A DNA stretch of 31,852 nucleotides from a virus, in the IMG/VR virus record IMGVR_UViG_3300000216_000011, positions 1 through 31,852 of that record; one strand, given 5' to 3'. A model generated the notes under the pieces. It searched no databases, was not told the DNA's origin, and saw nothing but the letters and a program-made list of their open reading frames with translations. The position numbers were made by a program, and so were the translations under genes. Of this stretch, positions 7,793 to 31,156 are shown in pieces. Positions within the stretch are counted from its first letter, which is position 1. Every line of letters begins with the position of its first letter.

Positions 7793-9991
7793 TTATCTCC
7801 CTGTTAGTTTAGTATTCATTCCTGCGAATGTATTTGTTAATTTACTGAAAGTCTTCGTTCCCGGTCTTATGTTCTGTGCAGTCATTTCATCAAGAATTAC
7901 GTTAACACTCTTTCCACCTGCCCCATCATCTTTCTCTTCTGTCTTAGTTCCTTCTGGTGCTCCTATAACATTCACTGTCACGTTAGAACCACCTTGGAAA
8001 TCTTTGAACCTATCGAGTGGTATTAATGCTTCTGCTCCTGCCTCACCAAAAGTTCCGAATGTAGGTTTCGTAGCTACACCGCCCTCTGCTGCTTGTATGC
8101 CTAGCCCTGCATTATTTAGTTTGAAATTTGAAGGCAGACTATTTGGTACTGATGGAAGACCTGCATCGGGAGAACTATTGCCAAATTTAGAAAAGATATC
8201 ACCTATTAATCCTCCTCCTGAACCACCTCCTGCTGCACCAAACAAACCTCCCAAAATAGGCTGTACAAACTGTGTTTTAATAGCCATTTGTATGATCATT
8301 CTAGAGAATGATTCTAAGATATTTCCAAAGGTGACTTCTGCACCCATAACCATATCAGTCATAGTGTCAGTGAAATCATCGCCAAAATTCTTAGCTGCTG
8401 ATGCCATAGTTTGAAAAGTCTGATCGTTCTTTAATCGGATTTGCTGCAAGCCCTTTGTTCTGAACTCATCAAAATCTTTTTGGCTGATCAGTTTCTTACG
8501 AACCAATATTTCAAACTCTTGTGCCTCTCTCTGAAACTGCACAATTGCAAAATCTGTAGAACTTTTTGTAACCTTATCATAGTCAGATTTAAATCTTTTT
8601 ATTTCTGCACCAAAAGATACTAGGTCAGATTTTAAGTTCTCTGCTGCAGAGGAACCTGTGCCACCTTTAGGAATATCTTCTCTGCTAAGACCACCTCTGA
8701 GATCATTCATATTACCGCCAGAAGATATGAAAATCTCACTTTGTTTCTCTAATTCTCTCATACCCTCTCTGATTTTTTTTGCTTTCTCCATTTCCTTGAT
8801 GAAAGCATCCAAGCCAGCAATAGCTATTCTGAACCCAGGGAGGAATAATACGTTGAGCACACCTGAATTTTTTAATGATATAAAGATCTTAGCAAATAGG
8901 GTTAAGGATGAAAGCAACTCTCCACCAAATGCCAGTTTCAAGTCATTCATATGCTCAACAAAAACTTTCATCTGTTCATTGAAGAGTTTTTGAGCCTCCA
9001 TAGTTACTCTGTCAGTAATTCCTGCTTTACCCGCAATTTCAGCAGCATCTTCTTGTGCTTTAGCTTTTTGGTTCAGAATAGCTGTTGCTGCCCTCAATGC
9101 ACGAACATTTTTGAAAATGATACTTAATTCTTCTGCACTGGCATCCTTAAATTTTAAAATGGATTCTATAAGCTTACCATTTTTTATAGCTGTTGAATTT
9201 AAGGTAACACCGAATTTTTCAAAGGCTAATCTTTGTGAGTCTATTGACTGTGTCTGTGTAAATGTTTTTATCAATGCAGCAAATTGCACAGCAGTCTTAG
9301 GAGCACTTTTCGCTACCCTGCTAATCATTGCGAAACCTTGTCCCAAGTCTTGCAATGAAACACCTGCTGATTTGGCCACACCAATTACCGTGCCAATGTT
9401 TTTCGCTAAATCCTCTAAAGTCAATCTACCACGTTTTTGTGTGGCGAATAGGAAATCAGTTGCCTCTGTAGCATCCTTTAACTCATTCCTGTAAAGTTGG
9501 AAAGTTGAGATGGTGGCAGATGTTGCAGTAGTTACGTCAGTAAAACCTCCGACTGCTAATTTAGCAGAAGCTCTTAAAACATCCATAGCTTCTGATGCAG
9601 GAATTGTGGCATCAATGATATCTTTCAAACCAGTAGCTAAATCTATTTTTGATCTCCCGAACTCCTTAGATAAATCTATGACACCACTTCTGAATTCCCC
9701 AAATACTAAATTTGAGTTCTCCATAAGTGAATTGATTTTTCCTAGTGACTCTTCAAAATTACCTGCTTCTTTTACAGCAGAACCAAATATTTTTCCTACT
9801 AAAAGAGCACTTACCGCACCAAAGGCAATTACTGCAGACCTAGCCGAAAGAATAGACTGCTTCATAGTTTTGAAACCAGACGTACTCTTTTTGGTAAATC
9901 CCTGCACCTGTCCTTGAGCCTTTTTAACTGCTTTTTCAAGTTTAAAAGTTTGCCCATCAATTACAACTGTTAATGTTCCTATATTAGCCAT
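7793..9991 (-). CDS. Tail tape measure protein
   Basis: The 732-aa protein has the layout of TP901-type tape measures. A basic N-terminus is followed by a hydrophobic helix (SARSAVIAFGAVSALLVGKI, about residues 48-67). The core domain carries SLGKINSLM, IDLSKEFGRSKIDLATGL and TLEDLAKNIGTVIGVAKSAG. A long helical middle and a lambda H-like end follow (SFSRMIIQMAIKTQFVQPIL), then a Gly-rich segment and PTFGTFGEAGAEALIPLDRF. The protein spans the tail lumen and sets tail length; by the usual rule of about 0.15 nm per residue this would be roughly 110 nm. It is directly downstream of the G/GT chaperone genes, which bind it during assembly. Confidence 0.93.
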   Translation of the reverse strand: MANIGTLTVVIDGQTFKLEKAVKKAQGQVQGFTKKSTSGFKTMKQSILSARSAVIAFGAVSALLVGKIFGSAVKEAGNFEESLGKINSLMENSNLVFGEFRSGVIDLSKEFGRSKIDLATGLKDIIDATIPASEAMDVLRASAKLAVGGFTDVTTATSATISTFQLYRNELKDATEATDFLFATQKRGRLTLEDLAKNIGTVIGVAKSAGVSLQDLGQGFAMISRVAKSAPKTAVQFAALIKTFTQTQSIDSQRLAFEKFGVTLNSTAIKNGKLIESILKFKDASAEELSIIFKNVRALRAATAILNQKAKAQEDAAEIAGKAGITDRVTMEAQKLFNEQMKVFVEHMNDLKLAFGGELLSSLTLFAKIFISLKNSGVLNVLFLPGFRIAIAGLDAFIKEMEKAKKIREGMRELEKQSEIFISSGGNMNDLRGGLSREDIPKGGTGSSAAENLKSDLVSFGAEIKRFKSDYDKVTKSSTDFAIVQFQREAQEFEILVRKKLISQKDFDEFRTKGLQQIRLKNDQTFQTMASAAKNFGDDFTDTMTDMVMGAEVTFGNILESFSRMIIQMAIKTQFVQPILGGLFGAAGGGSGGGLIGDIFSKFGNSSPDAGLPSVPNSLPSNFKLNNAGLGIQAAEGGVATKPTFGTFGEAGAEALIPLDRFKDFQGGSNVTVNVIGAPEGTKTEEKDDGAGGKSVNVILDEMTAQNIRPGTKTFSKLTNTFAGMNTKLTGR

Positions 9992-9994
9992 ATG

Positions 9995-10324
9995 TTATTC
10001 TTCCTTTTTTATCATTGACCTCATCATGCCAACATGGTCTTCGGATGTTTGTTTCATTCTACTTCTCTTGCCCTCATATAATTCAGGCATAAAATCAAAT
10101 GGTGTAAACTGTTCTTTTCCTTCTTTTAATTTCAAGTTGATCAGTAAGCTACAATACCTACCAATTCTACTCCACTCAGCTTCCTCACCAAATGGTTCTA
10201 CTGCGTAGTAAATTTCCCAATCACTAAGTTGTTTCGAAGTCAGACCCTCCATTAAATAATCTGGATGTGGGAATCCTAAAGCCAAACAAAGTCTGAATTT
10301 AATAAGGTTGCTTGGCTTCTTTAG
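9995..10324 (-). CDS. Tail assembly chaperone, T-like part, made by -1 frameshift
   Basis: The recognisable domain (LTSKQLSDWEIYYAVEPFGEE, about 96 aa, ending near 9995) matches the lambda T/DUF4035-type minor tail chaperone. It has no ATG; the nearest possible start is a TTG at 10285. The same frame stays open upstream to the A AAA AAC site at 10324-10330 in the preceding gene. A -1 shift there would join the two frames into a product of about 224 aa (115 from the G-like gene, 13 linker residues LKKPSNLIKFRLC, 96 from this domain). This matches the G/GT arrangement of lambda. The fusion recruits tail tube subunits to the tape measure and is absent from the virion. The start coordinate given is the first codon after the shift. 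Confidence 0.82.
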   Translation of the reverse strand, partial: LKKPSNLIKFRLCLALGFPHPDYLMEGLTSKQLSDWEIYYAVEPFGEEAEWSRIGRYCSLLINLKLKEGKEQFTPFDFMPELYEGKRSRMKQTSEDHVGMMRSMIKKEE

Positions 10325-10330
10325 TTTTTT
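10279..10330 (-). promoter_or_regulatory. Programmed -1 ribosomal frameshift signal (slippery site plus hairpin)
   Basis: The heptamer A AAA AAC is at 10324-10330 in the correct phase, two codons before the TAA stop of the G-like gene. About 5 bases downstream a hairpin can form. The 5' arm is at 10308-10318 (minus-strand AAGCCAAGCAA) and the 3' arm at 10279-10289 (TTGTTTGGCTT): 11 pairs with one G-U, and one more G-U possible outside. The loop is 18 bases. Heptamer, spacing and stem together fit a classic frameshift stimulator and explain why the downstream gene lacks a good start. It is seen directly in the sequence; activity is inferred from the conserved phage G/GT mechanism. Confidence 0.82.
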
Positions 10331-10668
10331 ACTAGCTCTTCAACTTCTTCTTTTTTAAGTCCTGCAAGTCTTTGTCCTGCTTCGAATAATTTATCCATTG
10401 CAGAAGCTGATTTCTTTCCTAGATCAATCAAATCCATTTTATTAAACATAAGCTTTCCTTTTTCGTCAACTACTGTAGCTGCTACGAATTTAGCTCTTAT
10501 GTTTTCAAGGTCTGCTTGATCACCACTTATCAACTGCTTCTCAAATTCATCTCTCTCTTTAGCTGTGATAGTTCTTACCTGTACGTCACCACCCCACTCT
10601 TCAACGTGGACTGTTTCAGTCTTTAAATCTTGTGCTTGCATTATTTGTTCTTTTGTTAAAAATCCCAT
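10321..10668 (-). CDS. Tail assembly chaperone, G-like
   Basis: The 115-aa protein has a mixed strand/helix layout: TVHVEEWGGDVQVRTITAKE, then FEKQLISGDQADLENIRAKF, VAATVVDEKGKLMFN and a Lys/Glu-rich C-terminal helix. This is the pattern of phage tail assembly chaperones of the lambda G class. It lies between the tail tube gene and the tape measure, the expected place. The ATG has an AGGAG at about 9 bases upstream. The last codons contain the slippery A AAA AAC, so a fraction of ribosomes should continue into the T-like frame. Confidence 0.85.
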   Translation of the reverse strand: MGFLTKEQIMQAQDLKTETVHVEEWGGDVQVRTITAKERDEFEKQLISGDQADLENIRAKFVAATVVDEKGKLMFNKMDLIDLGKKSASAMDKLFEAGQRLAGLKKEEVEELVKN

Positions 10669-10701: not shown

Positions 10702-11106
10702 TTATGATGTTTCTGTAATCTGTCCGTCAATCTTAATTGTTACACTCATTGTGATTTTATCATCCAATGGTATACTCTTACTGATAGATGTCACCCATCC
10801 AGAGAAAGCAAACTCTGTGTTCCCTGTATCAGGCATCACTATTACATAAGCTTGAGCAGTTGTGTTGTTTTCAAAGTCAGTGTTAAGCGAATCAAATCCT
10901 GCTCTTGTGTAGTTCATATCTATAACTACTTCTCCACCATCCCTGAAACCACCAATAAACTCTCTGTAACCACCTGTTGAATCTAGAGTCGTTACGTCAA
11001 TCGTGTCTCTTGTTCTATTCGGCCCTGATATAGAATTAACTTCTGCCAAAGCTACAGCGTTTCTTTTGAACACTGTTCCTACACCACTAATTGCACCACT
11101 TGCCAT
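10702..11106 (-). CDS. Major tail tube protein
   Basis: The 134-aa protein shows the tail tube pattern throughout: GVGTVFKRNAVALAEVNSIS, TIDVTTLDSTGGYREFIGGF, RDGGEVVIDMNYTRAGFDSL, YVIVMPDTGNTEFAFSGWV and IPLDDKITMSVTIKI. Subunits of this fold (shared with lambda V and Hcp) stack as hexamer rings to form the tail tube. It has a very strong ribosome binding site (AGGAGG) in a leader shared with the decoration protein gene, which suits a highly expressed virion protein. It lies between tail terminator and chaperone genes, as expected. Confidence 0.93.
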   Translation of the reverse strand: MASGAISGVGTVFKRNAVALAEVNSISGPNRTRDTIDVTTLDSTGGYREFIGGFRDGGEVVIDMNYTRAGFDSLNTDFENNTTAQAYVIVMPDTGNTEFAFSGWVTSISKSIPLDDKITMSVTIKIDGQITETS

Positions 11107-12859: not shown

Positions 12860-13555
12860 TTATCCTATCCTTCCTTCGTCAAATGCTTTCGCTATAAGTT
12901 TGTCATTGACGATAGTTTTTTGTCTTTTCATAGAATCAGAAATCCTTTTTTTATGTTCCTCCGAAAGTTTTCGGCCTTTTTTAGCTAAAGACATCTTTTT
13001 CTTAGATTCATCAGACATTTTCTTTCCTTTATGTGCAGAAGACATTTTTTGTTTTGTCTCTTCTGTATGGACAAAATCTTTTTTACTTAAGACCCTCTTT
13101 TCAACATGCTCAACAGTTTGCTTTTTCCCTTTAAAGAATAAAGATAAGATTCCCTTGGTTTCCTCAGTATGTTGTTTGTTGAAGAAAGGATTTTTATTGC
13201 CAAATCTATTTTTTACTTTATCTGATATCTTTTGTCTAGTCTCATCTGTATGCTTTATGCCTAACCTAGAACCTGCTGTTTTGCATAAATTAAAAAGAGG
13301 AGAATCTTTTTCATAATGATCAAGAAATCTTTGCTCTTGAAAAATTAATTCTGATGGCTCATAATAACAAAGTATCTTAAATTTAAAATTCTCTTTTCCG
13401 TATTTATTATAAGCATTTTGAAGATATTTGTTAGCATGTTTATTTCTTTTTAATTCCGAATAATGTTTATTTTTTCGTCTTTTTAAATCTACAGCACTCC
13501 CTATATACTTCTTACCATTAGAATTACATACAATTTCATAAATACCACTATTCAT
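12860..13555 (-). CDS. Free-standing GIY-YIG homing endonuclease with NUMOD3 repeats
   Basis: The 231-aa protein carries the GIY motif (MNSGIYEIV), KKYIGS as the YIG motif (residues 17-19), the Arg-rich helix DLKRRKNKH (catalytic Arg near 26-27), and Glu in IFQEQRFLDHY (near 74). From about residue 98 it has several NUMOD3-type DNA-binding repeats (KHTDETRQKISD, HTEETKQKMSSAHKGKKMSD, SEEHKKRISDSMKR). This is the build of Seg-type homing endonucleases, which cut intron- or gene-lacking alleles to spread themselves. Its ATG overlaps the sulfotransferase end by 8 bp and has AGGAG upstream. It lies 1 bp before the connector gene, at one border of the accessory block. Confidence 0.93.
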   Translation of the reverse strand: MNSGIYEIVCNSNGKKYIGSAVDLKRRKNKHYSELKRNKHANKYLQNAYNKYGKENFKFKILCYYEPSELIFQEQRFLDHYEKDSPLFNLCKTAGSRLGIKHTDETRQKISDKVKNRFGNKNPFFNKQHTEETKGILSLFFKGKKQTVEHVEKRVLSKKDFVHTEETKQKMSSAHKGKKMSDESKKKMSLAKKGRKLSEEHKKRISDSMKRQKTIVNDKLIAKAFDEGRIG

Positions 13556-14255
13556 GACAAACTCCTACAATGCGATTGTTTACAACTATCTTACCCTCGT
13601 TCCACAGATTTGGAGAAACAAATTCTTTTACTTCATCTTCTTTCCATTCCAAGCCTAGCCATTCAACAACTGATTTAGCTTCACTGAACTGTCCATCAAT
13701 CATCTCTTGAGGCCAAACTTCGATAAGGTCTAAATCAGCATGCAGCATCTCATTAAATCTATTTATGTGTTGGTGAATCCAACCCTGCCATCCTTGTTCT
13801 GTATCGAAAGCTCTCATGAAGCCTGTTCTCATACAGGAGTTTACTATCTCTTTACTTCTTCTTCTTACTATAATCCATTTAGCATCTGGGAAAGCTGCAT
13901 TCCATAAAGGCCACATCAAACACATCTTTGCACCCTTGTAGAACCAAGTGTCATCTTCTCCCACACCCTGATATCTGAGAGTGTCTTCTACTTTCTTTCT
14001 CCACTCTTCACCATCTAAATCCTTGAATAACTTTACATCTGGTAAAGGATGCTGTGCCATAGGATCAACTCCTAGAGTTTGTAGAAGAGGTTTAACTAAA
14101 TCGTTTCTAATTTCAGCATTCTCAAACATGCCTTTCTTATTGTATATTGTTGCAGGACTTGTCTGACCGCCTTTTGCCCCACATATATTCATGACTCCTG
14201 CAGTCATTGATGTACCACTTCGTGCACAGCCAGTTATCAAGATTGGTGATTTCAT
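13548..14255 (-). CDS. Sulfotransferase family protein
   Basis: The 235-aa protein has the P-loop-like 5'-phosphosulfate binding motif GCARSGTSM (residues 9-17). The 3'-phosphate binding segment is KWIIVRRRSKEIVNSCMRT (residues 126-144, with Arg131-133 and Ser140). The family moves sulfate from PAPS to hydroxyl groups of sugars or proteins. It belongs to an accessory block with glycosyltransferases, so a glycan acceptor is likely, though the substrate cannot be read. The leader resembles that of the G-like chaperone gene. It is close in length to short sulfotransferases and has no membrane segment. Confidence 0.85.
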   Translation of the reverse strand: MKSPILITGCARSGTSMTAGVMNICGAKGGQTSPATIYNKKGMFENAEIRNDLVKPLLQTLGVDPMAQHPLPDVKLFKDLDGEEWRKKVEDTLRYQGVGEDDTWFYKGAKMCLMWPLWNAAFPDAKWIIVRRRSKEIVNSCMRTGFMRAFDTEQGWQGWIHQHINRFNEMLHADLDLIEVWPQEMIDGQFSEAKSVVEWLGLEWKEDEVKEFVSPNLWNEGKIVVNNRIVGVCHE

Positions 14256-14278
14256 ATTAAGACTCCTTTGATTAAGGT
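14256..14278 (-). promoter_or_regulatory. Leader of the sulfotransferase gene, near copy of the G-like gene leader
   Basis: The minus-strand leader ACCTTAATCAAAGGAGTCTT before the ATG holds AGGAG as ribosome binding site. It matches the leader at 10669-10691 at 22 of 26 positions including the start codon. A partly similar TTAACCATA also precedes the small gene at 21770. Confidence 0.5.
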
Positions 14279-14286
14279 TTCTTTCT

Positions 14287-15282
14287 TCATGTTATTGTCC
14301 TTATGTTATCTTTTCTGTAAAAGTAAAAATCTTCTTTGTTCTCTTTGAAGTTCTTAACAGGCTTTGTATATCTGTAATCTGTTGCCTTATCAAAAGCTTT
14401 ATTAATACCTCCGCAAATGTTTTGCAAGTCACACTCTTTACAAGAACCATTTTTACATTCTACATTGTTACTTGTACGCTTTCCCCAATTATCAAAAGCT
14501 CCTACAGTTTTTGGTTCTATGTTGTAATCCCATTCATATGGATCAAAGACTACATGACGATCATTACAAATACATCTTCTATATTCTTCTGCTACTCTAC
14601 ACATAGGGTAGTACCTAACATTAACTCCTACTCCATTATCTTCTAAATGCTTGATAGCTTTGTTAAGCAATGGTTCTACCACATCTAAGTCTGCTGCTAC
14701 TTTTCCTGTTTCTATGGACTTGTCTTGCCATTCATGGTGAGGATTCATATTAATGAAATTCACTATTCTAGGTTTATGATGAACAAGTTCTTTAGCTATA
14801 GCAAAAATCTCTTCTTGATTATAATGATTTATAACACAATTAAATCTAATCGGTATCCCTGCTGTACGCAAACTGAATAAGAAATCTAATTGTTTTAAAT
14901 AAGCATCCTTATAATTAGTTATGAAATTATGTGTCTCTTCTAAACCATGTCTAGATACTAAGAACTCATCTACTCCAGAACTTACTAAATCACGAACTGT
15001 TTTCTTATTAACTATTCCATTTGTTATGATACAGGTTTTAACATCTTTAGAAAGAGCGTAGGCAACCACCTCACAAATGTACTTGTACATTGTAGGTTCT
15101 CCCCCTGTAACATCCATATAATTATTACCCCTAGCAATTCCATCATTAATCACTCCCTTTGCTTTGTCAAGACTCCAATCATACTCTTTCCATTTTTCAT
15201 AAGTATGTAAGTAATAACAAAATTTACATTTAATATTACAACTTCTAGATGAATCTAACACAAATCGTTTAGTCGGTTCCAT
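14287..15282 (-). CDS. Radical SAM protein with SPASM-like C-terminus
   Basis: The 331-aa protein has the radical SAM cluster motif CNIKCKFC (Cys15, Cys19, Cys22), which binds a 4Fe-4S cluster and S-adenosylmethionine. GGEP (residues 60-63) is the SAM-contacting motif. The C-terminal part holds Cys228, 237, 239, 276, 281, 284 and 290, including SCKECDLQNICGG, in the manner of a SPASM/twitch auxiliary cluster domain. Such enzymes carry out radical modification of peptides, sugars or alcohols. It overlaps the glycosyltransferase-like gene upstream by 14 bp and has GGAG before its ATG. The substrate is unknown; context favours a role linked to glycan or peptide modification. Confidence 0.87.
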   Translation of the reverse strand: MEPTKRFVLDSSRSCNIKCKFCYYLHTYEKWKEYDWSLDKAKGVINDGIARGNNYMDVTGGEPTMYKYICEVVAYALSKDVKTCIITNGIVNKKTVRDLVSSGVDEFLVSRHGLEETHNFITNYKDAYLKQLDFLFSLRTAGIPIRFNCVINHYNQEEIFAIAKELVHHKPRIVNFINMNPHHEWQDKSIETGKVAADLDVVEPLLNKAIKHLEDNGVGVNVRYYPMCRVAEEYRRCICNDRHVVFDPYEWDYNIEPKTVGAFDNWGKRTSNNVECKNGSCKECDLQNICGGINKAFDKATDYRYTKPVKNFKENKEDFYFYRKDNIRTIT

Positions 15283-16141
15283 TGCTTAACTCCTCCAATA
15301 AATGAGGATGTAGTTGGAACACCTCTGGTAAATCCTCTAAGGTTATCTCTTTTATACCTGCCCAATGCTTCTGGAAATGTGTTGCAGGATGAAAACCTCT
15401 TTCCCATTGTCCTTCTAAAGGTTCTGGAATTTTCTTCCACACATTCTCAGTCCAATCATCTAAGTCAACTATTTTGTTTCCTTCATAGCCATTTGAATTT
15501 CTTATCTTTTCTAATACAGTATTGAAATCTCTTCGCACATAAACAAAGTGATGAAACCACACAGGCTTTCTAGGAATAATGTCAGTTACCATTTTCTGCA
15601 TGAAATTCTCTTGACAACATCTATGATTCTTCCCTAAGTCTTTTCTACGAGCACTTACAAAGATTGTCGGAGCCATTACTTCTTCTGGTTCCACTCTGTA
15701 GAATGGACTCTTTATGTAAGTATAAAGTCTAGCTCTATAAACATAGTCATGATTCTCATTTCTCTTTAGGTACTGAATAGCCTGTGTTAGATTGTAATCA
15801 TCCCAAACTTCATCAGTGTCGATTAACATTACCCAATCAGCATTGAAGTTATCTTGTATGAATCTGTAACCTTCCATACACTGATGGAACTGATCTCCTG
15901 TATTGCAATCAATAGAATAAATCTTGTCATCAACATCTAACCATTTCAGAGAATTGATCACTGATTTACAAGTGTTACCATACTTATCTACATTTCCTCT
16001 TAGACCATGATCCCAAGCCTTCTCAGAGTTAACAAACACAATGTAATCAACATGATTATAGATACTCCTAACCATAGCTTCTATGAATTCATCTCCTCTG
16101 AATGTTTTGCAAAGGGCTGCTATTTTTGGTGTCTTACTGAT
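15269..16141 (-). CDS. Glycosyltransferase-like protein (GT-A, DxD), probable non-AUG start
   Basis: From the first ATG (16075) the protein is 268 aa and has a GT-A metal-binding motif WVMLIDTDEVW (Asp86, Asp88). YIVFVNSEKAW, typical of a GT-2-like N-terminal strand, lies close to that ATG. The frame upstream reads SKTPKIAALCKTFRGDEFIE, which looks like a real N-terminus missing from the ATG-initiated form. No ATG, GTG or TTG lies in that extension. An ATC at 16139-16141 sits 6 bases after AAGGA, so I place the start there, inside the preceding gene. The cassette context suggests it adds a sugar to a shared glycan. The enzyme class is inferred from the fold motif; the start is tentative. Confidence 0.7.
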   Translation of the reverse strand: MSKTPKIAALCKTFRGDEFIEAMVRSIYNHVDYIVFVNSEKAWDHGLRGNVDKYGNTCKSVINSLKWLDVDDKIYSIDCNTGDQFHQCMEGYRFIQDNFNADWVMLIDTDEVWDDYNLTQAIQYLKRNENHDYVYRARLYTYIKSPFYRVEPEEVMAPTIFVSARRKDLGKNHRCCQENFMQKMVTDIIPRKPVWFHHFVYVRRDFNTVLEKIRNSNGYEGNKIVDLDDWTENVWKKIPEPLEGQWERGFHPATHFQKHWAGIKEITLEDLPEVFQLHPHLLEELSNGTD

Positions 16142-18132
16142 GTGTTTTCCTTTCCTTCATGGAATCCACAACACTTAGGATTCGTACATGGATAATCTGT
16201 TATATCTCTATTCTCGATTCTCTTTATTAATTCTCTTCTCTTTTCACCGTTAAAGATATCTAATATGTGTTCATCCATTATGTTTCCACATGTCATCTCA
16301 TCTTGGTGATCAGCATAACAATTAGAACTCCAAACAGCTTTTCCATTTCTTCTTACCCATAAAGTATGATTTTTTTCTACTGTTATATCATAAACAAAAC
16401 CATCATAATGAACTTGTTTGATACCATTATCAATAAGAGAATTGATCTTTATACTGTTCCGTTCCTCTTTAAAGATAGTAACAATCCATTGAGGCAAGTT
16501 CATTTTAGTCTTATCAAAAGGATTTTGCCTTGGCTCCTGAAGAACTATATTCGCACCATAGCCACATTTATAAGCTATCTCTTGGACATCATCAGCCAAT
16601 TGTTTCGAAACTGTATAATAACGATGACCAGTTTTATAACTTGTACCATCCCCTTTAATCAATGTGCCTAACAAAGCTTCTAAATGTCGTTTTGGTAATT
16701 GTTTAATATCGTTAGGTATGAATTTATCAAAAGATTTACCAAATTGATCAACATAATCATAAAACTTTTTATCATTGAACTTCCATGAACTCCCATCTTT
16801 GATAGGATGGAAACCACATTTTTTTATGAGTACACCAATTTCTTCATAAAAAGCAGGTTTTTTTTCTGGTGATTGGCTAATCCCCACAGACCATCTATCA
16901 CGGACATTTCCATTAATAGAACCATCTTTTCTTACTCTTTTATCTACAGATTTGTTATTATAATGATACCCTTCTGATAGATACCAGCCTAAAAGTGCCA
17001 AGAAATCTATGCTGTATTTCTTTGTAAGTTCTTCATCACCATCCCAATCAAAGAATCTCGGTATAAAGTAGTTTCCTTTTTTGAAATTCTGTATCTCTTT
17101 CCATACATAACCATCTTTTAATTCTTTAGGTTTATTTGCAAAGTTACTCTCATATGAAGCCTTTGGCTCAAGAGGGAATTTATGTTCAGGAGTAACTTGC
17201 AGGTCAATATTTCTGTTTTTTATCTCATACAAATCTCCTTCAAATTCATATCTTTGTGTATCAGTTATTTTTGACCATTCAGTTTCTTTATTAGCTTTTC
17301 TAGTTAATATAGTCTCTTTCCCTGTTAAATCCTTAAAAAACTTCCAACCTTCATCGGTAAAAACTTCCGTATCTTCAACGTAACAACAAACCTGTACGTC
17401 ACCGTTAGGACATATCCAAGTAACAGTTTTTATTATATCTAGTTTAGGACAAGCTGTTTCTGTATCCTTTGGAGCTTTTAATCTTTCTCCCCATAGACAA
17501 TGACTGATACTTGTGATTGATAAAGGTGAACTATTGTCTTTCTGGAAATAGTTTATTATCTCACCTTCTTCACATTTCAGTTTGCTTAGTTCCTCATCTG
17601 TATAGATATCTCTAGCAGGTCTCATACCTAGAACCCTTTGACACTTTGCATAATATTTTCTTATATCATTATAAAGTATGACAACTGGTATCTTTTTATT
17701 TATAGATAAGAAGTATTTAAGGTTATCAAATACGTTATCCATATTAAGATTACTGTTCTTTTCAAAAACTGTCCTGTCAAGACTTTCTAGTCTTACATGA
17801 ATCCTATCGAACAAATCTTCTTCTACTATTCTATCTGCTTTTTCTTTATCTAACATAGAGAAGTTATTATAAGTCCACCTTACCTTATCTGGGAAAGTGT
17901 CCTTTAACTTCTTAATGTAGTCTAGGTAATTTGGATTTAAAAATGTCTCTCCATTACCACTTGTTTGTATCATTGTAAAATCTACATCTTTTAATTGTTC
18001 TAATAATGTATTGAATACATCCCACTTCATGAAGAAGCTGTTACCACATCCATGAGGTCTGGAACATATAATGCATTCTGCACCACATATATTCGACATA
18101 TTTATTTCTATTTCATAAATCGTTTTATTCAT
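16120..18132 (-). CDS. Radical SAM/SPASM protein interrupted by an intein
   Basis: The 670-aa precursor begins with the radical SAM motif CGAECIIC (Cys16, 20, 23). The host protein runs to Cys249, then a 355-aa intein (residues 250-604), then resumes at Cys605. Joined, the exteins give a 315-aa protein reading GDVQVC then CYADHQDEMTCGNI. This is the SPASM-type pattern in which two adjacent cysteines lead into GNI and a C-terminal helix. The end has further cysteines (PCTNPKCCGF) that could hold an auxiliary cluster. Without splicing, the cluster site would be broken. Its ATG overlaps the glycosyltransferase gene upstream by 4 bp (18129-18132). The substrate is unknown. Confidence 0.88.
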   Translation of the reverse strand: MNKTIYEIEINMSNICGAECIICSRPHGCGNSFFMKWDVFNTLLEQLKDVDFTMIQTSGNGETFLNPNYLDYIKKLKDTFPDKVRWTYNNFSMLDKEKADRIVEEDLFDRIHVRLESLDRTVFEKNSNLNMDNVFDNLKYFLSINKKIPVVILYNDIRKYYAKCQRVLGMRPARDIYTDEELSKLKCEEGEIINYFQKDNSSPLSITSISHCLWGERLKAPKDTETACPKLDIIKTVTWICPNGDVQVCCYVEDTEVFTDEGWKFFKDLTGKETILTRKANKETEWSKITDTQRYEFEGDLYEIKNRNIDLQVTPEHKFPLEPKASYESNFANKPKELKDGYVWKEIQNFKKGNYFIPRFFDWDGDEELTKKYSIDFLALLGWYLSEGYHYNNKSVDKRVRKDGSINGNVRDRWSVGISQSPEKKPAFYEEIGVLIKKCGFHPIKDGSSWKFNDKKFYDYVDQFGKSFDKFIPNDIKQLPKRHLEALLGTLIKGDGTSYKTGHRYYTVSKQLADDVQEIAYKCGYGANIVLQEPRQNPFDKTKMNLPQWIVTIFKEERNSIKINSLIDNGIKQVHYDGFVYDITVEKNHTLWVRRNGKAVWSSNCYADHQDEMTCGNIMDEHILDIFNGEKRRELIKRIENRDITDYPCTNPKCCGFHEGKENTSVRHQK
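16321..17385 (-). mobile_element. LAGLIDADG intein inside the radical SAM gene
   Basis: The 355-aa intein starts at Cys250 (CYVEDTEVFTDEGWKFFKDL, block A). It has block B LQVTPEHKFPL (His317), two LAGLIDADG motifs (LALLGWYLSEG near 378-388; LEALLGTLIKGDG near 484-496), block F VYDITVEKNHTLWV and block G AVWSSN, ending at Asn604 before Cys605. Both endonuclease motifs keep the expected acidic residue (Glu, Asp), so homing activity looks intact. The residue before the terminal Asn is Ser rather than the usual His. The element sits between two adjacent cysteines of the host SPASM motif. Confidence 0.92.
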
Positions 18133-18767
18133 TTAGGCTGTGTCCAATCTCGCTGATTTGTCACTGTTGTATCGTCAGGGTATAAACTTAAGTATAATTT
18201 CTTATTGTGTTCAAAGTACTTACCACCTTGATTCTTTTGAATATTGTTATGAATCAACTCACAATCATTATTAATCATTATTCTTTTATTGTTAAAGTGA
18301 ATGTTAATTCTGTTCATGTAATCAGTATCTTCATAACCACTTCCTATAAAACCTTCATTGTATCTGAGACTGTTTCTTCTTACCGCCAAACATGCTGTCG
18401 GGATTCTGTAATGTCCTTTATAAGTGCTAGGCAGTACATCGTGTGTTCCTGAATGCTGTACTTTGTTGTCTCCCATCATGTGACCCCTAGTACCGTCTGG
18501 ATTCATTAACCTAGCAGACACAATAAGTATCATTTGGTTATGCATCATAGGTCTGATTAAATCCTCAACCCATCCCTCATAGAACCCTTCCATATCGTCA
18601 TCCATCATTATATAGATGTCAGACTTAACTTCATTCAATCCTTTATTCCTGTTAGCACTTGCAGAGTCATCAAGTCCTGTGAAAATTAAATTATGCTCTT
18701 TAGAAATATTTTCTTCTATCTCTGATGTGTCAAAATCTTTGTTGTTCGTTACTAATATTATATCCAT
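18129..18767 (-). CDS. Glycosyltransferase family 2-like protein
   Basis: The 212-aa protein has a GT-A fold signature: a short N-terminal strand (MDIILVTNN), the element ASANRNKGLNEVKSDIYIMM, and DDD (residues 56-58) as the metal/nucleotide-sugar motif. GFIGSGYEDTDYMNRI holds a likely catalytic Glu-Asp pair. It is short for the family and lacks a membrane segment. It is 4 bp overlapping with the radical SAM gene and directly adjoins the next glycosyltransferase gene. Donor and acceptor sugars cannot be read from the sequence. Confidence 0.8.
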   Translation of the reverse strand: MDIILVTNNKDFDTSEIEENISKEHNLIFTGLDDSASANRNKGLNEVKSDIYIMMDDDMEGFYEGWVEDLIRPMMHNQMILIVSARLMNPDGTRGHMMGDNKVQHSGTHDVLPSTYKGHYRIPTACLAVRRNSLRYNEGFIGSGYEDTDYMNRINIHFNNKRIMINNDCELIHNNIQKNQGGKYFEHNKKLYLSLYPDDTTVTNQRDWTQPK

Positions 18768-19475
18768 TTAATGCTGATATCCTTCTGATAATCCCTCACC
18801 TATGTGCTCAATATAAATTTTATCTACTGGATTAGCTCTTTTAAATCCTAATTCCAAATACCTTAAAGCATGTGCTCTATCCCACCTTCTAGATATGTTT
18901 GAGTGACCCTCATCTAATTCCCCAATTATTTCTAATGTTGGTATGTGATGGAGACCGGGATTCCAACTATATCCAAACCAATTAGTATCACAATCTAGTA
19001 TACATGGTGAACGATGTTTTACTAATGGAGGCTCCATTACAGGATCATACTTATGAAGGTTGTACATTAAATTTCCTTCTCTTCCATACAGGACATTTCC
19101 CCTTTTATTTCTCAGTATTACATTTTTAATCCTCCTATCATCATTGGCTATATCAAATAAATTACCTATGAAAAACGGCACTAAAAACATCCAATCATCT
19201 TCACAATGAAAAAACCATTCAGTCTCCACCATGTCTATGATCTTATTCAGACTTACAGGTTGCCCTCTGCGATCTGCAGTATTCTGCACAATCTCAAATA
19301 CTGGATAAAGTTCCTTGATTTCATCGAGTTCTTCTTGAGGACTTCCATCGTCTACAAGTATCCATCTAGTTATCAAATCTTTGTCCATGCACTTCTTCAT
19401 AAAACTTTTCATTGTTTTTTTAAACATTTCAAGTCTTTTATAAGTAGTTATAGTGAATGTAACTTCAGGATACAT
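18768..19475 (-). CDS. Glycosyltransferase family 2-like protein
   Basis: The 235-aa protein starts MYPEVTFTITTYKRLEMFKK, the standard opening strand of family 2 glycosyltransferases. It has WILVDDGSPQEEL (VDDGS at 41-45) and the metal site FFHCEDDWMFL (Glu92, Asp93, Asp94). These enzymes transfer a sugar from a nucleotide donor with inversion. It overlaps the next gene upstream by 11 bp and ends just before the next start, so translation is coupled. The substrate is unknown. Confidence 0.88.
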   Translation of the reverse strand: MYPEVTFTITTYKRLEMFKKTMKSFMKKCMDKDLITRWILVDDGSPQEELDEIKELYPVFEIVQNTADRRGQPVSLNKIIDMVETEWFFHCEDDWMFLVPFFIGNLFDIANDDRRIKNVILRNKRGNVLYGREGNLMYNLHKYDPVMEPPLVKHRSPCILDCDTNWFGYSWNPGLHHIPTLEIIGELDEGHSNISRRWDRAHALRYLELGFKRANPVDKIYIEHIGEGLSEGYQH

Positions 19476-20145
19476 ATTTTTGAACTTTCTCCTCTAATAC
19501 TTTTTTACTGTTCTGGAATCTAATTGAATTCTCATCCTTATCTTTGTAGTTCTCTGGTTTCCTAGATTCATGCCACAGGTGAAACCACATATCATATAAT
19601 TCTTTTCTCTTTATTAAAATTTCTTTTTCTAACAGTTTGCTCTTGAATGAAATATCTGAATCCTCTCCACCCCATCCAGTGTACGACTCATCATAAAACT
19701 TCTCACCAAAACAATCTTTGAATATTTCTAATGTTTGCTTGGTAATAGTTATTTGTGAACAACCTTTGAAACTTGCTCCTTCTCCCCTGAAACACTTCTG
19801 CATATTCTCAACTATATACTCGGACTGTTCTTTAGGTAGTTTCTGCCCATAAGAAACAATGTAATCGTATCCTGCATGAAAAGCTATTTCTATTGTGCTG
19901 AAAAATTGATAACTGTAAATCATATCGATATCAAATACACAGAGCACATCAAAATCTTGCCTCATATCAGCTATTGCTATATTTAATAATTTAGCTTTAT
20001 TAAATTCCTCATCTGTACCTCCTACTAAGAGATACTTAATGTCATGATCTTCTTTATAATGCTCTATCAGTATTTCTATATAACGTATAAAAGTTTTCTC
20101 ATGATCATCTCTATTCTGATTAACTGCAATAACATTTATTTTAAT
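19465..20145 (-). CDS. GT-A glycosyltransferase-like protein, probable AUU start
   Basis: The protein has FDVLCVFDIDMIYSYQFF with an Asp-x-Asp metal motif and TGWGGEDSDISFKSK, resembling the galactosyltransferase C-terminal type (catalytic Trp-Gly-Gly-Glu-Asp). No ATG precedes the conserved start. A TTG at 20166 has a weak ribosome binding site, whereas an ATT at 20143-20145 lies 7 bases after AGGAG and gives MKINVIAVNQNRDDHEKTF, a natural-looking N-terminus. I give the ATT start. It overlaps the stop region of the upstream gene, so coupled translation is likely. The start is tentative; the class is firmer. Confidence 0.75.
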   Translation of the reverse strand: MKINVIAVNQNRDDHEKTFIRYIEILIEHYKEDHDIKYLLVGGTDEEFNKAKLLNIAIADMRQDFDVLCVFDIDMIYSYQFFSTIEIAFHAGYDYIVSYGQKLPKEQSEYIVENMQKCFRGEGASFKGCSQITITKQTLEIFKDCFGEKFYDESYTGWGGEDSDISFKSKLLEKEILIKRKELYDMWFHLWHESRKPENYKDKDENSIRFQNSKKVLEEKVQKYVS

Positions 20146-20780
20146 GCGTACTCTCCTTGTAGCCAATTAACATCTCTAGGTCTAGGGTGTCCGTGAAAAA
20201 CAACTGCATCAATTAACGGATGCACACCATCTTGGCAATTATGTTTGTATGAAGCCACATTTACATAATCATTTACAGATAATATTTCATTTGTCTTTAA
20301 GACTGTATCTGTAATGTACTCCTGATCCCATTTATCATATTTTTCAATTGTTTCTTTATTAATACCAGTTAACAGATGGCTAAAGTCTCCATTCCATCCC
20401 ATTATAGAAGAATTGAATCTACGATCTTTATGGAATCCTTCCATCATATAAAAATGAGATTTCCCATTAGACCTAAAAGGTGAAAAGGTTACAGCTTTGA
20501 AAAAATCTGTTAATTCATATTTAAGTATTATATCTAAATCAAAATATATTACTTGTCCCTTCATTTTGAATACTTCTAATTTCGACCAGTAAGATTCTAG
20601 ATCAGTTGTTAACGATTGTATATTGATTCCATACAAAGAAAATCTATCTATCTTGTCAGTAAAAACTGTAAATTTAAAATCAAAATTTACTATCCTATCT
20701 TTCAGATTCTCATGGAGCTTATCAACGTAGTCCCAATCAAAATCTCCTCCTGATTTCAAGCAGCATACTATTTGCAGCAA
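20136..20780 (-). CDS. Glycosyltransferase-like protein (DxD)
   Basis: The 214-aa protein starts with TTG after a GGAGG-type site about 10 bases upstream. It opens with MLQIVCCLKSGGDF and has the metal site VIYFDLDIILKYEL (Asp81, Asp83), RRFNSSIMGWNGDF, and a C-terminal VVFHGHPRPRDVNW with a His that could bind metal. This is the general build of retaining GT-A (GT8-like) enzymes. It overlaps the DUF115-like gene by 13 bp. No donor or acceptor can be assigned. Confidence 0.78.
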   Translation of the reverse strand: MLQIVCCLKSGGDFDWDYVDKLHENLKDRIVNFDFKFTVFTDKIDRFSLYGINIQSLTTDLESYWSKLEVFKMKGQVIYFDLDIILKYELTDFFKAVTFSPFRSNGKSHFYMMEGFHKDRRFNSSIMGWNGDFSHLLTGINKETIEKYDKWDQEYITDTVLKTNEILSVNDYVNVASYKHNCQDGVHPLIDAVVFHGHPRPRDVNWLQGEYALK

Positions 20781-21445
20781 AGTTTTATAGCCTCCTCTAG
20801 TTCCATTTTTTCAAAACATTCTATCTTGCTCTCTAACGATGTGTTAATTATCCTGACTCTGAGTGAATCAGCATCTAATTTTATTTCTGCAAATGCTTGT
20901 AGCATTCGTTCATAAGGTGTGGTCGCTATCTGATTAGGTATCACATGTGCATTGTGCCAATTATCTGCACCATCTGCTTTTGCGAACATATCAAACCCAA
21001 TCAAGACTATGTTTTTAGCACCTAAGTGTACAGCTAAATTAATAGCTGCAGCACCAGATGATTTATTCCATTTAATGATCTTGGGGTCTTTGTGAATCCC
21101 AAAACCATTTTCTCTATCCACAGTCTTTATCCAAGCGATTTTATTTTGTGGGTGACAACAAACTACTAAACCTGCAAAGTGAACAATTTTATCTTCATTC
21201 CAATCTAACCATCTAGTATCACCGTAGAAACAGATGTCAACCCAATCTCCTAATTCGAAAGCGTTGTTGACACCTATAACACGTTGATTATGAATACAAG
21301 CTAGATCATCAGAAATAGATTTCTTGATAACATCTTTTGTATCTTCATTCCATTGCAAACCAGTTTTGTTGAGACTTTCACCACCACCTATGATAAACAC
21401 AGTAGAATTCGGCCACAACTTCTGAACAGTCCAACGATCAGCCAT
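20768..21445 (-). CDS. DUF115-like / motility accessory-type protein
   Basis: The protein has a Rossmann-like N-terminus STVFIIGGGESLNKTG, then VIGVNNAFELGDWVDICFYG, SGAAAINLAVHLGAKNIVLI and a final helix INTSLESKIECFEKMELEEA. This resembles DUF115/6-hydroxymethylpterin pyrophosphokinase-like and motility accessory factor proteins, which are linked to nonulosonic acid or glycan work. A longer frame starts at 21514. An ATG at 21445 with AGAGG five bases upstream gives MADRWTVQKLWPNSTVFII and overlaps the upstream stop by 8 bp, so I prefer it (225 aa). A glycan role follows from context; activity is not certain. Confidence 0.72.
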   Translation of the reverse strand: MADRWTVQKLWPNSTVFIIGGGESLNKTGLQWNEDTKDVIKKSISDDLACIHNQRVIGVNNAFELGDWVDICFYGDTRWLDWNEDKIVHFAGLVVCCHPQNKIAWIKTVDRENGFGIHKDPKIIKWNKSSGAAAINLAVHLGAKNIVLIGFDMFAKADGADNWHNAHVIPNQIATTPYERMLQAFAEIKLDADSLRVRIINTSLESKIECFEKMELEEAIKLCCK

Positions 21446-21770
21446 TAGCCCTCTGTGCTTTAATAAGCTTTTTGGCTTCTTCATGTGACAAGCATTCATC
21501 GTTGAGCTTATCACCTGTTTTTTCGCTGATCACATCGTACTGCTTATCCGCAACTTTCCTTATTACAAAACCATATACAGGTTCTTGTTTTACTTCTTGT
21601 TCTTGTATTAGAATAAACTTATCTCTAGCACTACCGAGTTCGCATTCTTCACATACAAGTAAATCACCACCTTTAAGTAATCTGTCATTAAGAACGGAGT
21701 CTTTCCCACCTCTCACAACAGCTTTCTTCCAGTAGTGTTTCTTTCCTTCTTTAACTTGAAACTTTGGCAT
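21438..21770 (-). CDS. Small hypothetical protein, head-module type
   Basis: The 110-aa protein is basic at the start (MPKFQVKEGKKHYWKKAVV), then LLKGGDLLVCEECELGSARD, DKFILIQEQEVKQEPVYGF and a Lys/Glu-rich helix. Small proteins with a similar start and a GD-containing turn often follow capsid genes and may be virion proteins. It has a clear AGGA before its ATG and lies at the border between capsid genes and the accessory block. I cannot assign a function. Confidence 0.5.
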   Translation of the reverse strand: MPKFQVKEGKKHYWKKAVVRGGKDSVLNDRLLKGGDLLVCEECELGSARDKFILIQEQEVKQEPVYGFVIRKVADKQYDVISEKTGDKLNDECLSHEEAKKLIKAQRANG

Positions 21771-28055: not shown

Positions 28056-29466
28056 CATCACCCCCTGCTGCATCTTGTTTAGGATTGTTATCCTTGCCTG
28101 TAGGGTTATTCTTACTTGAAGGTTCGTTTAGCTTTGTTCTAGTTGCACCTTTAGTTTCATCAAGAACTTTCTTGATTAACTCTGCATCAAAGTCTAGGAA
28201 CTCCCTCATGTAAATTTCAAATGGTAAGAAATCAAATGCATCTAGTGCATTGAAGTAAGTCGCTATAGCTTCTGAAAGGGTTTTCACTATTTCAGCTTTT
28301 TCCTTCTCAGAAGGTACAGCTATTGGTTTCCATTCAATACTATAAGACGCTTCCTTTAATATTCCAAATTTTTGAAGTCTTTGTATGAATGGATCAATTA
28401 TGTTCGGGGATATAAAATTTATTCTTCTTTCTTCTAATCTCTTATTCCAAGCTGTTTCATCCTGAGAACTAGCTAATTCGCCTCTCTCACTACCTATCAG
28501 AATTCTCTTTGGAATACCTGTCGCACCTGAAATAAGTGATACATATATGTCTATGTGATTTGATGGATCAGCAACTTGCGGAGCTAGACTCTTTATGTCC
28601 ATGCCTTGTAAGTTTACTGACCTTTGTAAATTATGAAAATACTTTTCTAGATCAGTTGCCATAGTTGCTTCTGTTAAAGAAGAATCTAGTACTGCATCTT
28701 TGTCAAGTATGAAAGCAAATCCCGGTAATGCTCCTCTCCAGAACATCTCAGCACTCCCACAGCTTACTAACTCTAAATTCTTTAACTGATTAAAAATAGC
28801 TTCTAGTCTTGGAGTACCATACACATCATCTTCAAGCAATCCTTCTGCTATGTGTATAATTCTAGACCAATGTACTAATCTAGTCTTTGTACTATTACTG
28901 TCTGTTGATACTGCAGTTGTTTGTATTTCATATAGTTCTGGTAATCCAAATCTCTCATCTGTAATATCACTTACAAATGTTTTGATTACTGCGTTTTCTT
29001 CTTTGTATGGTCTGAGATAAAGTAACTGTGTTGCCGTACCTACAGGTTGATCTAAAGAACGACCATCATCAAGTCCAAGTAAAAGTCCACTGTATCTACC
29101 TATACCACTAAGTTTATCTGCTCTTAGTAAGTAATTAAGAACTTTCTTTTCTCTATTTAATACATCCCACTGATCTTCGAACTCAGTTGTTTCATTCGAA
29201 TCATTTTCGATAATCATAGGAGGGAGTCTCCATGACTCTGTGACTGGAGCTTCTACAACTCTCTTTGCTATGTCTCCTCTTTTGTATTGTTCCCAATAAT
29301 GCTTAAATGTTAGAGAGCTTTCAAAACCTAATGCTTTGTAAATGTCTCTATCATCTGTATATGATTTTCCTGCTCTTTGTAAAAGATCACTCCTACCTAC
29401 AATACCATTCATAGTTCTTAGGAAATCTTTTTTATTAAATGTTACTGTGTCAGCTTTTTTTGTCAT
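28048..29466 (-). CDS. Portal protein (DUF1073-like)
   Basis: The protein (472 aa from the ATG at 29466) shows the DUF1073-type portal pattern: SSLTFKHYWEQYKRGDIAKR, VVEAPVTESWRLPPMI, IGRYSGLLLGLDDG, VHWSRIIHIAEGLLEDDVYG, GIPKRILIGSERGELASSQD and a C-terminal acidic/Lys-rich tail. Twelve copies should form the DNA entry ring. A TTG at 29481 could add five residues. The ATG is preferred because its ATGA overlaps the stop of the terminase gene and has GGGGA upstream. It directly follows terminase, as usual. Confidence 0.88.
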   Translation of the reverse strand: MTKKADTVTFNKKDFLRTMNGIVGRSDLLQRAGKSYTDDRDIYKALGFESSLTFKHYWEQYKRGDIAKRVVEAPVTESWRLPPMIIENDSNETTEFEDQWDVLNREKKVLNYLLRADKLSGIGRYSGLLLGLDDGRSLDQPVGTATQLLYLRPYKEENAVIKTFVSDITDERFGLPELYEIQTTAVSTDSNSTKTRLVHWSRIIHIAEGLLEDDVYGTPRLEAIFNQLKNLELVSCGSAEMFWRGALPGFAFILDKDAVLDSSLTEATMATDLEKYFHNLQRSVNLQGMDIKSLAPQVADPSNHIDIYVSLISGATGIPKRILIGSERGELASSQDETAWNKRLEERRINFISPNIIDPFIQRLQKFGILKEASYSIEWKPIAVPSEKEKAEIVKTLSEAIATYFNALDAFDFLPFEIYMREFLDFDAELIKKVLDETKGATRTKLNEPSSKNNPTGKDNNPKQDAAGGDDE

Positions 29467-30527
29467 TTCTTTTGTCCCCAAGTACCTGCTCTACCTTTTC
29501 CATTCAATAAATTAAATGCCCCACTAGAGCAATCTACGAAATCCTTTTTTAGTCCCATAGGGAATAATTCGTGTTGTTTTATAAAATCTGCATTCCATGC
29601 TCCTCTAAGTAAATAGACATTTCCTATTTCTATCTGAGTAGCATATGGTTCTGCTCTTGTAACTTTATCTTTTCCAACTTTATCTTTTCTAACAGAGAAC
29701 CCTGCAAGATTTTTTACTGTTGCATCTGCTGATTCTAAACCACCCGATCCCGGTTCTTGCTCAATCCCTATTGTTGTTGCTCTGCCATCATTCATTGCTA
29801 CATTTTTTATCATCTTCTCTCGTTTAGGAGCTTTCCATAAACCAGAAACTAAATGTTCCACAATGAAAGAATTATTTTTCATCTTGTGCATTTTACAACC
29901 ACCAGTGAAAGCATTATTAGGATCATCAGTTCCACCTTTATCCCAATATCTTACAGTCCTCACTATCTCTGATGGAGGGATGCTGTCTACATAACTAAAC
30001 TTATCTACTTCGAACATCCCACCACCTCTAGGTGATGGTCTTTGTTGTAACTGTCCTGCTATTGCATATTCTGAACCTAAATCAGATTCTAAAGTTGAAA
30101 GTGATTCTTCATCATAAAGATTCTTCCAGAGTGGTTCTCCCTCCTCTGTCCTTGGGTCTTCAAATCCAATAACGGTTACACATTTATTTTCTTTTTCAAA
30201 TCTTGCAGGAAGAATTAAGTGAACTACATCCTCACCACTTTTCTCTAACCAGTGACCTGTTAAATCAGCTTCATGCAACCTTTGCATGTCAACAACTTTA
30301 ACAACTGTTTTAGGGTTGTTACCTCTAGTGGACATCGATTCATCCCACCAACGTAACGTACCTTTTCTAACTGCTTCTGATTCTGCTTGTTTTACATTGT
30401 GAGGGTCATCACAATTATGGGTCAAAATACCATTGACGAAGTAATTGTGATTATCAGCTATTCTTATATTGTAAACTTTTCTTTTGCCTAGCTTACGTTT
30501 AATACATGTGACAGTACGTTTTTCCAA
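29463..30527 (-). CDS. Terminase large subunit, C-terminal part, fused to split-intein C-fragment
   Basis: The 354-aa precursor begins with TTG at 30527 (weak AGAG upstream). Residues 1-38 are a split-intein C-fragment. From Cys39 the terminase continues with CDDPHNVKQAES. The DD belongs to Walker B, whose first half (GEGGDFIV) ends the extein at 31453. Further terminase marks are IAGQLQQRPSPRGGGMF and the RNase H-type nuclease residues in VRYWDKGGTDDPNNAF (Asp), IGIEQEPGSGG (Glu) and KKDFVDCSSGAF (Asp). It cuts and packages DNA with the portal. The TerL N-terminal ATPase parts lie on other polypeptides, so only trans-splicing can give a full enzyme. Confidence 0.9.
   Translation of the reverse strand: MEKRTVTCIKRKLGKRKVYNIRIADNHNYFVNGILTHNCDDPHNVKQAESEAVRKGTLRWWDESMSTRGNNPKTVVKVVDMQRLHEADLTGHWLEKSGEDVVHLILPARFEKENKCVTVIGFEDPRTEEGEPLWKNLYDEESLSTLESDLGSEYAIAGQLQQRPSPRGGGMFEVDKFSYVDSIPPSEIVRTVRYWDKGGTDDPNNAFTGGCKMHKMKNNSFIVEHLVSGLWKAPKREKMIKNVAMNDGRATTIGIEQEPGSGGLESADATVKNLAGFSVRKDKVGKDKVTRAEPYATQIEIGNVYLLRGAWNADFIKQHELFPMGLKKDFVDCSSGAFNLLNGKGRAGTWGQKK
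30414..30527 (-). mobile_element. Split intein C-fragment (IntC) in terminase
   Basis: The 38 residues end KVYNIRIADNHNYFVNGIL then THN, followed by Cys+1. Block F (VYNIRIADNHNYFV) and block G (ILTHN, with the usual His-Asn) are intact. IntC of known split inteins such as DnaE is about 35-40 residues, so this is the normal split site. Together with the 99-residue N-fragment it would make a 137-aa mini-intein. Confidence 0.92.
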
Positions 30528-31156
30528 AAAGCTCTGTTCCCATTAGTTGTTGAATGACAACTATTACACAAGGCTATCAAATTATCTTCTAAATTGTTCG
30601 TCTTATCATAATCAATATGATGGACATCCAAATTCTTGTCATAATCATCTTCATGCAAACCACAAACTTGACAAGTAAAATCATCTCTTGTTCTTATTTT
30701 CTTCTTTAATCTTTTATTAAACTCAACAGGATGTCTACTAGAACCGTTTCCATCTACATAATTAGGATTGTCCTCACCTCTCATCTTTAAGCTGTGAGCT
30801 AGATCAGCACATTCTCTATCACAGTGTTTTCTTAAAGAAGCTTTATTAACTATAAACTCCTCATTACATATTAGACAATTCCTTAAATCCTTTGCTCTTA
30901 AAGCTAATAAATGGCCCTTACATTTTTGACTGCAAACTTTTGATTCTTTTTCACTTTGTTTGACAGTATATTCCTTTTCGCAGATAACACATTGTTTTTT
31001 AATCCTGCCACCATTCCAAGAAGGATTATTTTTGCCTCTTTGCCATATCCCTTGACATTTGTGATCACAGAAAACATTCTTAACTGCTCTATTCCTTTTA
31101 GAGTTTTCCCTCACAACATCTTTATCACAATTTGAGCATTTTCTGATTATTTTCAT
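30488..31156 (-). CDS. Free-standing HNH endonuclease between the split-intein halves
   Basis: The 222-aa protein has three zinc ribbons in a row: Cys7/10/30/34, Cys56/59/75/79 and Cys94/97/112/116. A C-terminal HNH domain follows: FTCQVCGLHEDDY, LDVHHIDYDKTNNLEDNLIA, LCNSCHSTTNG (His179, His180, Cys197, Cys200, His201). Its ATG overlaps the stop of the upstream terminase/IntN gene as ATGA (31153-31156). Its end overlaps the start of the IntC/terminase gene (30488-30527). It thus occupies the place where an inteins' endonuclease domain normally lies, but as a separate gene. Homing into intact terminase alleles is the likely role. Confidence 0.92.
   Translation of the reverse strand: MKIIRKCSNCDKDVVRENSKRNRAVKNVFCDHKCQGIWQRGKNNPSWNGGRIKKQCVICEKEYTVKQSEKESKVCSQKCKGHLLALRAKDLRNCLICNEEFIVNKASLRKHCDRECADLAHSLKMRGEDNPNYVDGNGSSRHPVEFNKRLKKKIRTRDDFTCQVCGLHEDDYDKNLDVHHIDYDKTNNLEDNLIALCNSCHSTTNGNRAFWKNVLSHVLNVS

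Follow-up and report, generated by a model that had tools for sequence, protein, structure and literature searches.

The virus record IMGVR_UViG_3300000216_000011 is 31,852 bases long and was analyzed over its full length, which is called the window here; its structural genes lie on the minus strand, as do all of the tail features described below. Read 5' to 3' on this strand, the gene order is major tail protein, G, T and tape measure. The gene of the major tail (tube) protein (10702-11106; PHROG 158, E 5.8e-19; Pfam Phage_TTP_12, 44.6 bits) is the adjacent upstream neighbor of gene G (10321-10668), which encodes a 115 amino acid tail assembly chaperone, starts with ATG and has a Shine-Dalgarno-like AGGAG upstream. 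The slippery heptamer A_AAA_AAC (10324-10330) is in phase with G, belongs to a heptamer class that is shared with relatives and is followed immediately by the zero-frame TAA stop of G (10321-10323). The T extension (9995-10324) is found in the -1 frame, with 109 codons and a stop, and the tape measure gene (7793-9991; 732 amino acids; PHROG 991, E 2.3e-30; Pfam PhageMin_Tail, 68.7 bits) is adjacent downstream. A G-like chaperone ORF is thus placed between the major tail protein and tape measure genes, as expected of a G/GT locus.

Several other features were seen elsewhere on the minus strand of the window. The terminase gene (29463-31852) appears to be interrupted by inteins: the C-terminal end of one (..LIPTHN|S) is near 31740, and a second looks split, with an N-half ORF that ends at 31153, an HNH endonuclease ORF (31156-30488) and a C-half that contains Terminase_6C (30527-29463). 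This arrangement resembles the published 'fractured gene' split inteins. A SPASM/radical-SAM-like protein (16120-18132) also seems to contain an intein (C|YVEDTEVF ... AVWSSN|C); it matches LAGLIDADG weakly, and its Intein_splicing score of 22.3 bits is under the cut-off. The protein belongs to a non-structural block amid the structural genes (12860-21514), together with a GIY-YIG endonuclease with NUMOD3, a sulfotransferase, a radical SAM protein, a family 2 glycosyltransferase and similar ORFs. No tRNA genes were found in the window and no Rfam family matched within it.

The heptamer AAAAAAC is located at offset 338 in G, which is phase 2, and its zero-frame reading is A_AAA_AAC. The 3' end of G reads GTA AAA AAC TAA, with AAA and AAC as the final two sense codons, which confirms the in-phase site two codons before the stop that the initial annotation had described. 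It had also claimed a downstream frame that is open up to the slippery site and a fusion of 224 amino acids; both hold, as the open -1 frame spans 10339 to 9995, slip site included, and 115 amino acids of G plus 109 of the -1 extension give a predicted GT fusion of this size. A G/GT site is marked by an X_XXY_YYZ heptamer in phase with G, close to its end, and by a T domain in a -1 frame that is open up to this heptamer, and the locus has both. Among 52 in-phase X_XXY_YYZ heptamers in the window (36 genes, 10,013 codons), only the A_AAA_AAC of G offers an extension of more than 90 nt past the stop. The further claim that no ATG exists downstream was wrong: ATG codons are found in the T frame at 10252, 10090 and later positions, none of them before T residue 25, and the first lies inside the conserved domain and has no ribosome-binding site. 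The first start-like codon in this frame is TTG at 10285. A Shine-Dalgarno stimulator was not found upstream of the slip site, where the best duplex (-2.1 kcal/mol) is weaker than the background median (-2.8).

The identity of the two proteins was examined by families and by models. The T extension passes the cut-off of Pfam Phage_tail_T (PF06223), with 34.7 bits against 25.9, and seven of ten aligned T sequences match this family at E 0.01. The NCBIfam equivalog TIGR01715 phage_lam_T scores the window T at 13.9 bits, below its cut-off of 77.35, and from these sequence scores we regard it as a lambda-like protein that is not an equivalog of lambda T. G likewise scores below the cut-off of Pfam Phage_TAC_13 (PF16459; 18.4 against 28.8 bits) and is matched instead by the PHROG 344 tail assembly chaperone (E 2.6e-24). 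The AlphaFold model of G has a mean pLDDT of 66.7, and its best fold match is 2ob9, the tail assembly chaperone of HK97 (Foldseek E 1.2e-3; Z 9.8 and rmsd 3.6 over 97 residues). The T model has a pLDDT of 72.9 and a pTM of 0.42; T-domain proteins and N15 GT are among its top rows in BFVD, at E values over 0.04 and query TM-scores under 0.4, so that this modeled resemblance is only suggestive. A sequence-profile search of the PDB gave no match for the T profile and only weak, unrelated ones for the G profile. In all of the ten aligned proteins G keeps K114 and N115, with which it ends ahead of the shift, and the first T residue, Leu, is likewise invariant; the similarity of T among the relatives begins at the first codon past the heptamer.

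Relatives were sought in IMG/VR with both G and T, and in GTDB genomes, with the best 80 of 283 relatives kept from one G scan. The resulting test set contains 54 distinct sequences, the window included. All 54 are matched by the G profile in frame 0, and 51 also by the T profile, in the -1 frame relative to G; up to 10 rows of the profile derive from phages of this set. Of the three that miss, L107 has its contig end 32 nt past the match, L071 has a -1 frame that is open for only 34 codons and in which no T match was found, and L117 is a false match with weak G similarity, whose translation we take to be an RNA polymerase subunit. With L117 left out, the heptamers of 53 members were counted: A_AAA_AAC in 34, G_GGA_AAC in five, A_AAA_AAG in four, other types in seven and none in three. 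The comparison of the signal in related phages that the initial annotation had proposed as a check gives the -1 T frame in 51/54 and A_AAA_AAC in 34/53. In relatives where G extends beyond the heptamer, often by 36 nt, the T frame remains -1. It was also observed that T of L067, L109 and L112 lies in the -1 frame relative to G, yet these three lack a canonical X_XXY_YYZ heptamer near the G end. When the T of L024 was used as query it matched only within its own group. A scan with a DNA pattern returned 14 stretches, ten of them known relatives and four (L123, L132-L134) chance matches with neither G nor T.

Among named phages, G matches 20 GenBank records, mostly of Streptomyces and Rhodococcus phages; the window T matched none of the GenBank phage records by sequence. 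The annotation was read in seven of the 20 records. A two-piece joined CDS is annotated in four of these (phiSASD1, Dubu, Jflix2 and Kovu) and in none of Wentworth, REQ1 and Mae-JY09. The heptamer is GGGAAAC in phiSASD1, Dubu and Wentworth, GGGTTTC in Jflix2 and GGGAAAA in Kovu, and no heptamer was found in REQ1 and Mae-JY09. In the records of REQ1 (L141) and Wentworth (L138) the T part is annotated as a separate hypothetical gene with no joined CDS. In Wentworth the in-phase GGGAAAC leads into a -1 frame of 111 codons, and judging by these reading frames its GT fusion was probably missed in the public record.

A stem is found downstream of the heptamer in the window. Its 5' arm GAAGCCAAGCAA (10308-10319) starts 4 nt past the heptamer and pairs, 10319-10308 with 10289-10278, with the 3' arm TTGTTTGGCTTT (10278-10289) in 12 pairs that include two G-U, around a loop of 18 nt (10290-10307). 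The spurious TTG start (10285-10283) falls inside the 3' arm. If the outer G-U pair is omitted there are 11 pairs at a spacer of 5 nt. The initial annotation had given 11-12 pairs and a spacer of about 5 bases; the stem stands, with 12 pairs, and the spacer of 4 nt is one base shorter than suggested. Stimulatory structures are placed about 5-8 nt after the heptamer in the accessible part of one survey (PMC4066793), and we counted the window as having a stable structure at about this distance (z -4.02), as expected of a stem-stimulated -1 signal. When 4,000 minus-strand positions were drawn at random, 0.4% had a stem of at least 12 pairs at equal spacing, and when the T codons were recoded synonymously 5,000 times, 0.64% of the versions had a fold as stable as that of the window (-16.7 kcal/mol). 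A pseudoknot was considered and is not claimed: the hexamer TCAGAC in the loop (10290-10307) is complementary to GTCTGA at 10246-10240, a match for which the chance level may be about one in six per sequence by a rough estimate. By eye, the nearest relatives L005 and L006 have this match and L024 lacks it at the aligned position, with a different six-base match a few codons further on. Four distinct close sequences (the window, L005, L006 and L024) were available for such comparisons.

The stem was then compared among the relatives in two ways. The first was the folding of the 60 nt past the heptamer in 49 of the 50 heptamer-bearing sequences, one being dropped for too little downstream DNA. 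Their mean z past the heptamer is -1.87, whereas four control offsets give means of -0.12 to -0.31; z is below -2 in 41% of the sequences past the heptamer and in 6-8% at the control offsets. For the second, the T codons were aligned and the pairing of the first post-heptamer codons with the R-L-A-L codons was summed over 40 sequences, with those that lack the three main heptamers excluded, as well as L107 (too short), L071 (no T) and L082 (misaligned). The expected homologous stem pairs are 291 against 163.5 +- 23.7 in synonymous recodings, with none of 150 nulls as high, for two regions that were picked after the window stem and some of the relatives had been seen. Where G overlaps T, this null takes no account of the zero-frame constraint, a problem from which the 20 non-overlapping cases, in which G stops at the site, are free; for these, without the window, the value is 128.6 against 81.3 +- 16.8, and for the 19 overlapping sequences, also without the window, it is 149.6 against 84.6 +- 16.4, with 0/200 nulls as high in either group.

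The stem is more than chance would give, as homologous positions pair more than synonymous recoding predicts, and the share of 0.64% of recodings places the window stem beyond the coding expectation. We regard the comparison as evidence that a coding-embedded stem at the homologous place is favored across the branch, and only this is modestly new here; the frameshift site itself is well supported and an ordinary one of a known type. The homologous stem is weak or absent (fewer than 5 pairs) in 16 of the 40 sequences. In the closest divergent relative, L034, which shares a contig with L024, about 8 pairs, only the core of the stem, are kept and two A-U pairs are broken, as judged by eye. RNAalifold gave no consensus structure on the codon alignment, probably because the stem registers differ between sequences, and the pairing sum took its place. 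Heptamer type was also compared with stem strength by eye, and a link between the two was dropped: three of the four A_AAA_AAG sequences show no excess folding but are near relatives, and the fourth has a z of -4.58.

One option is that the frameshift is real and the stem is incidental, with no role. The 16 sequences that miss the homologous stem fit this option, as does the statement, in the part of the literature available to us, that in certain tailed phages the shift seems to proceed without stimulators (PMC5009743). The low share of recodings that fold as stably as the window, together with the strong excess in the group, argues against it, and we consider an incidental stem unlikely. Whether the hairpin is part of the G/GT signal in a group of tailed phages described as shifting without stimulators is a broader proposition, for which we see even odds. 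In a survey, conserved hairpins are reported for three of five phage clusters, and only one of them was judged relevant in the text available (PMC4066793).

Another option is that T is a separate gene that starts at TTG 10285 or ATG 10252, perhaps coupled to the termination of G. The mechanical ORF list does start T at TTG 10285, and the records of Wentworth and REQ1 annotate the T part as a gene of its own. Upstream of TTG 10285 and ATG 10252 the best anti-Shine-Dalgarno duplex has +0.4 kcal/mol, whereas G has one of -6.8 and the tape measure gene one of -5.6. A start at TTG 10285 also loses 13 conserved residues, including the invariant Leu1, Phe10 and Leu12, and a separate gene leaves the conserved in-phase heptamer unexplained. 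We find this option very improbable and agree with the initial annotation that TTG 10285 is a false start, as it is part of the 3' stem arm, falls within the conserved beginning of T and has no Shine-Dalgarno pairing. Least credible of all is that the -1 product comes from slippage of RNA polymerase on the A run and not of the ribosome, as a run of only six A is short for transcript slippage, the relatives' G_GGA_AAC, AAATTTC and similar heptamers fit two-tRNA slippage and not homopolymer slippage, and the downstream mRNA hairpin fits a ribosomal signal. In its favor, the site does consist of six consecutive A, and longer A runs are known to permit slippage (PMC3711429, as far as the available text goes).

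The reading that fits our data is a lambda-type G/GT programmed -1 ribosomal frameshift, to which we give a probability of about 95% from sequence comparison. It is supported because the gene order, the protein families, the in-phase heptamer, the -1 T frame in 51/54 and the joined-CDS annotations agree, and the initial proposal of a frameshift signal that joins tail chaperones G and T is borne out by the same evidence. Most ribosomes would read GTA AAA AAC TAA and stop, which would give the chaperone G. A minority would slip one base back on A_AAA_AAC, with the Lys and Asn tRNAs re-pairing in the -1 frame; these ribosomes would bypass the stop and read CTA AAG AAG, and the product would be the 224 amino acid GT with the junction ...VKN-LKK... 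The hairpin 4 nt past the heptamer most likely holds the ribosome at the slip site and so raises the rate of the shift. By analogy with lambda, G would coat the tape measure protein, and GT would recruit the tube protein through its T part. Against this frameshift reading count the three of 53 members with no canonical heptamer and the seven more with unusual ones only. L071, with its short -1 frame and no T match, REQ1 and Mae-JY09, with no heptamer, and the lack of an upstream Shine-Dalgarno stimulator speak against it too. The 16 of 40 sequences without a homologous stem and the two broken pairs in L034 also count against it, as does the weakness of A_AAA_AAC as a slip site in E. coli, where it is reported, in the accessible text, to be much less shift-prone than A_AAA_AAG (PMC5009743).

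A correct reading of this locus prevents a mis-annotation, in this phage and in its uncultured relatives, in which T is called as a short gene from TTG 10285 and GT is missed. According to the available part of one source, low-level G-T frameshifting is widely conserved among long-tailed phages, with a G:GT ratio of about 30:1 in lambda, where this ratio is crucial for tail assembly (PMC5009743). For an HK97-like chaperone cluster, 6% and 7% frameshifting in E. coli is given for two genes in reporter tests (PMC3711429, text available in part). With a stem present in much of the branch, the way in which tailed phages tune the G:GT ratio becomes open to test here.

The site can be compared with several known systems. 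In E. coli dnaX, whose frameshift product is shorter and not longer, an A-rich heptamer is also combined with a downstream stem-loop. It differs in its A_AAA_AAG heptamer and in an upstream Shine-Dalgarno-like stimulator, as described in the text available (PMC3711429), of which none is seen in the window. The same heptamer as in the window, AAAAAAC, was proposed as the tail-chaperone slip site of Acinetobacter phage Loki gp12/gp13 and of Caulobacter phage phiCbK gp93/94, and in Loki it adjoins the stop codon as it does here; we liken both by their published descriptions, the accessible parts of which mention no stem for either (PMC5313236, PMC3556154). A_AAA_AAC is also listed for the haloarchaeal HCTV-2 in the part available (PMC5009743). 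The HK97 chaperone 2ob9 is the top fold match of the G model (Z 9.8), with only 12% identity and for a model whose mean pLDDT is only 66.7. In phiSASD1 gp35/gp35.1 and Dubu gp13/14, G is about 40-44% identical, the two pieces are annotated as a joined CDS, and the heptamer stands immediately before the stop and is followed by a -1 T frame of 115-118 codons; they differ in the heptamer, GGGAAAC, and in a T that is too distant for a tblastn match from the window T. In lambda the slip site is G_GGA_AAG and not A_AAA_AAC, and the window differs further in its 12-pair stem and in a G that falls below the Pfam cut-off. With lambda G/GT the locus shares the gene order, the -1 direction, the PF06223 T domain and a shift site near the end of G, ahead of the tape measure gene.
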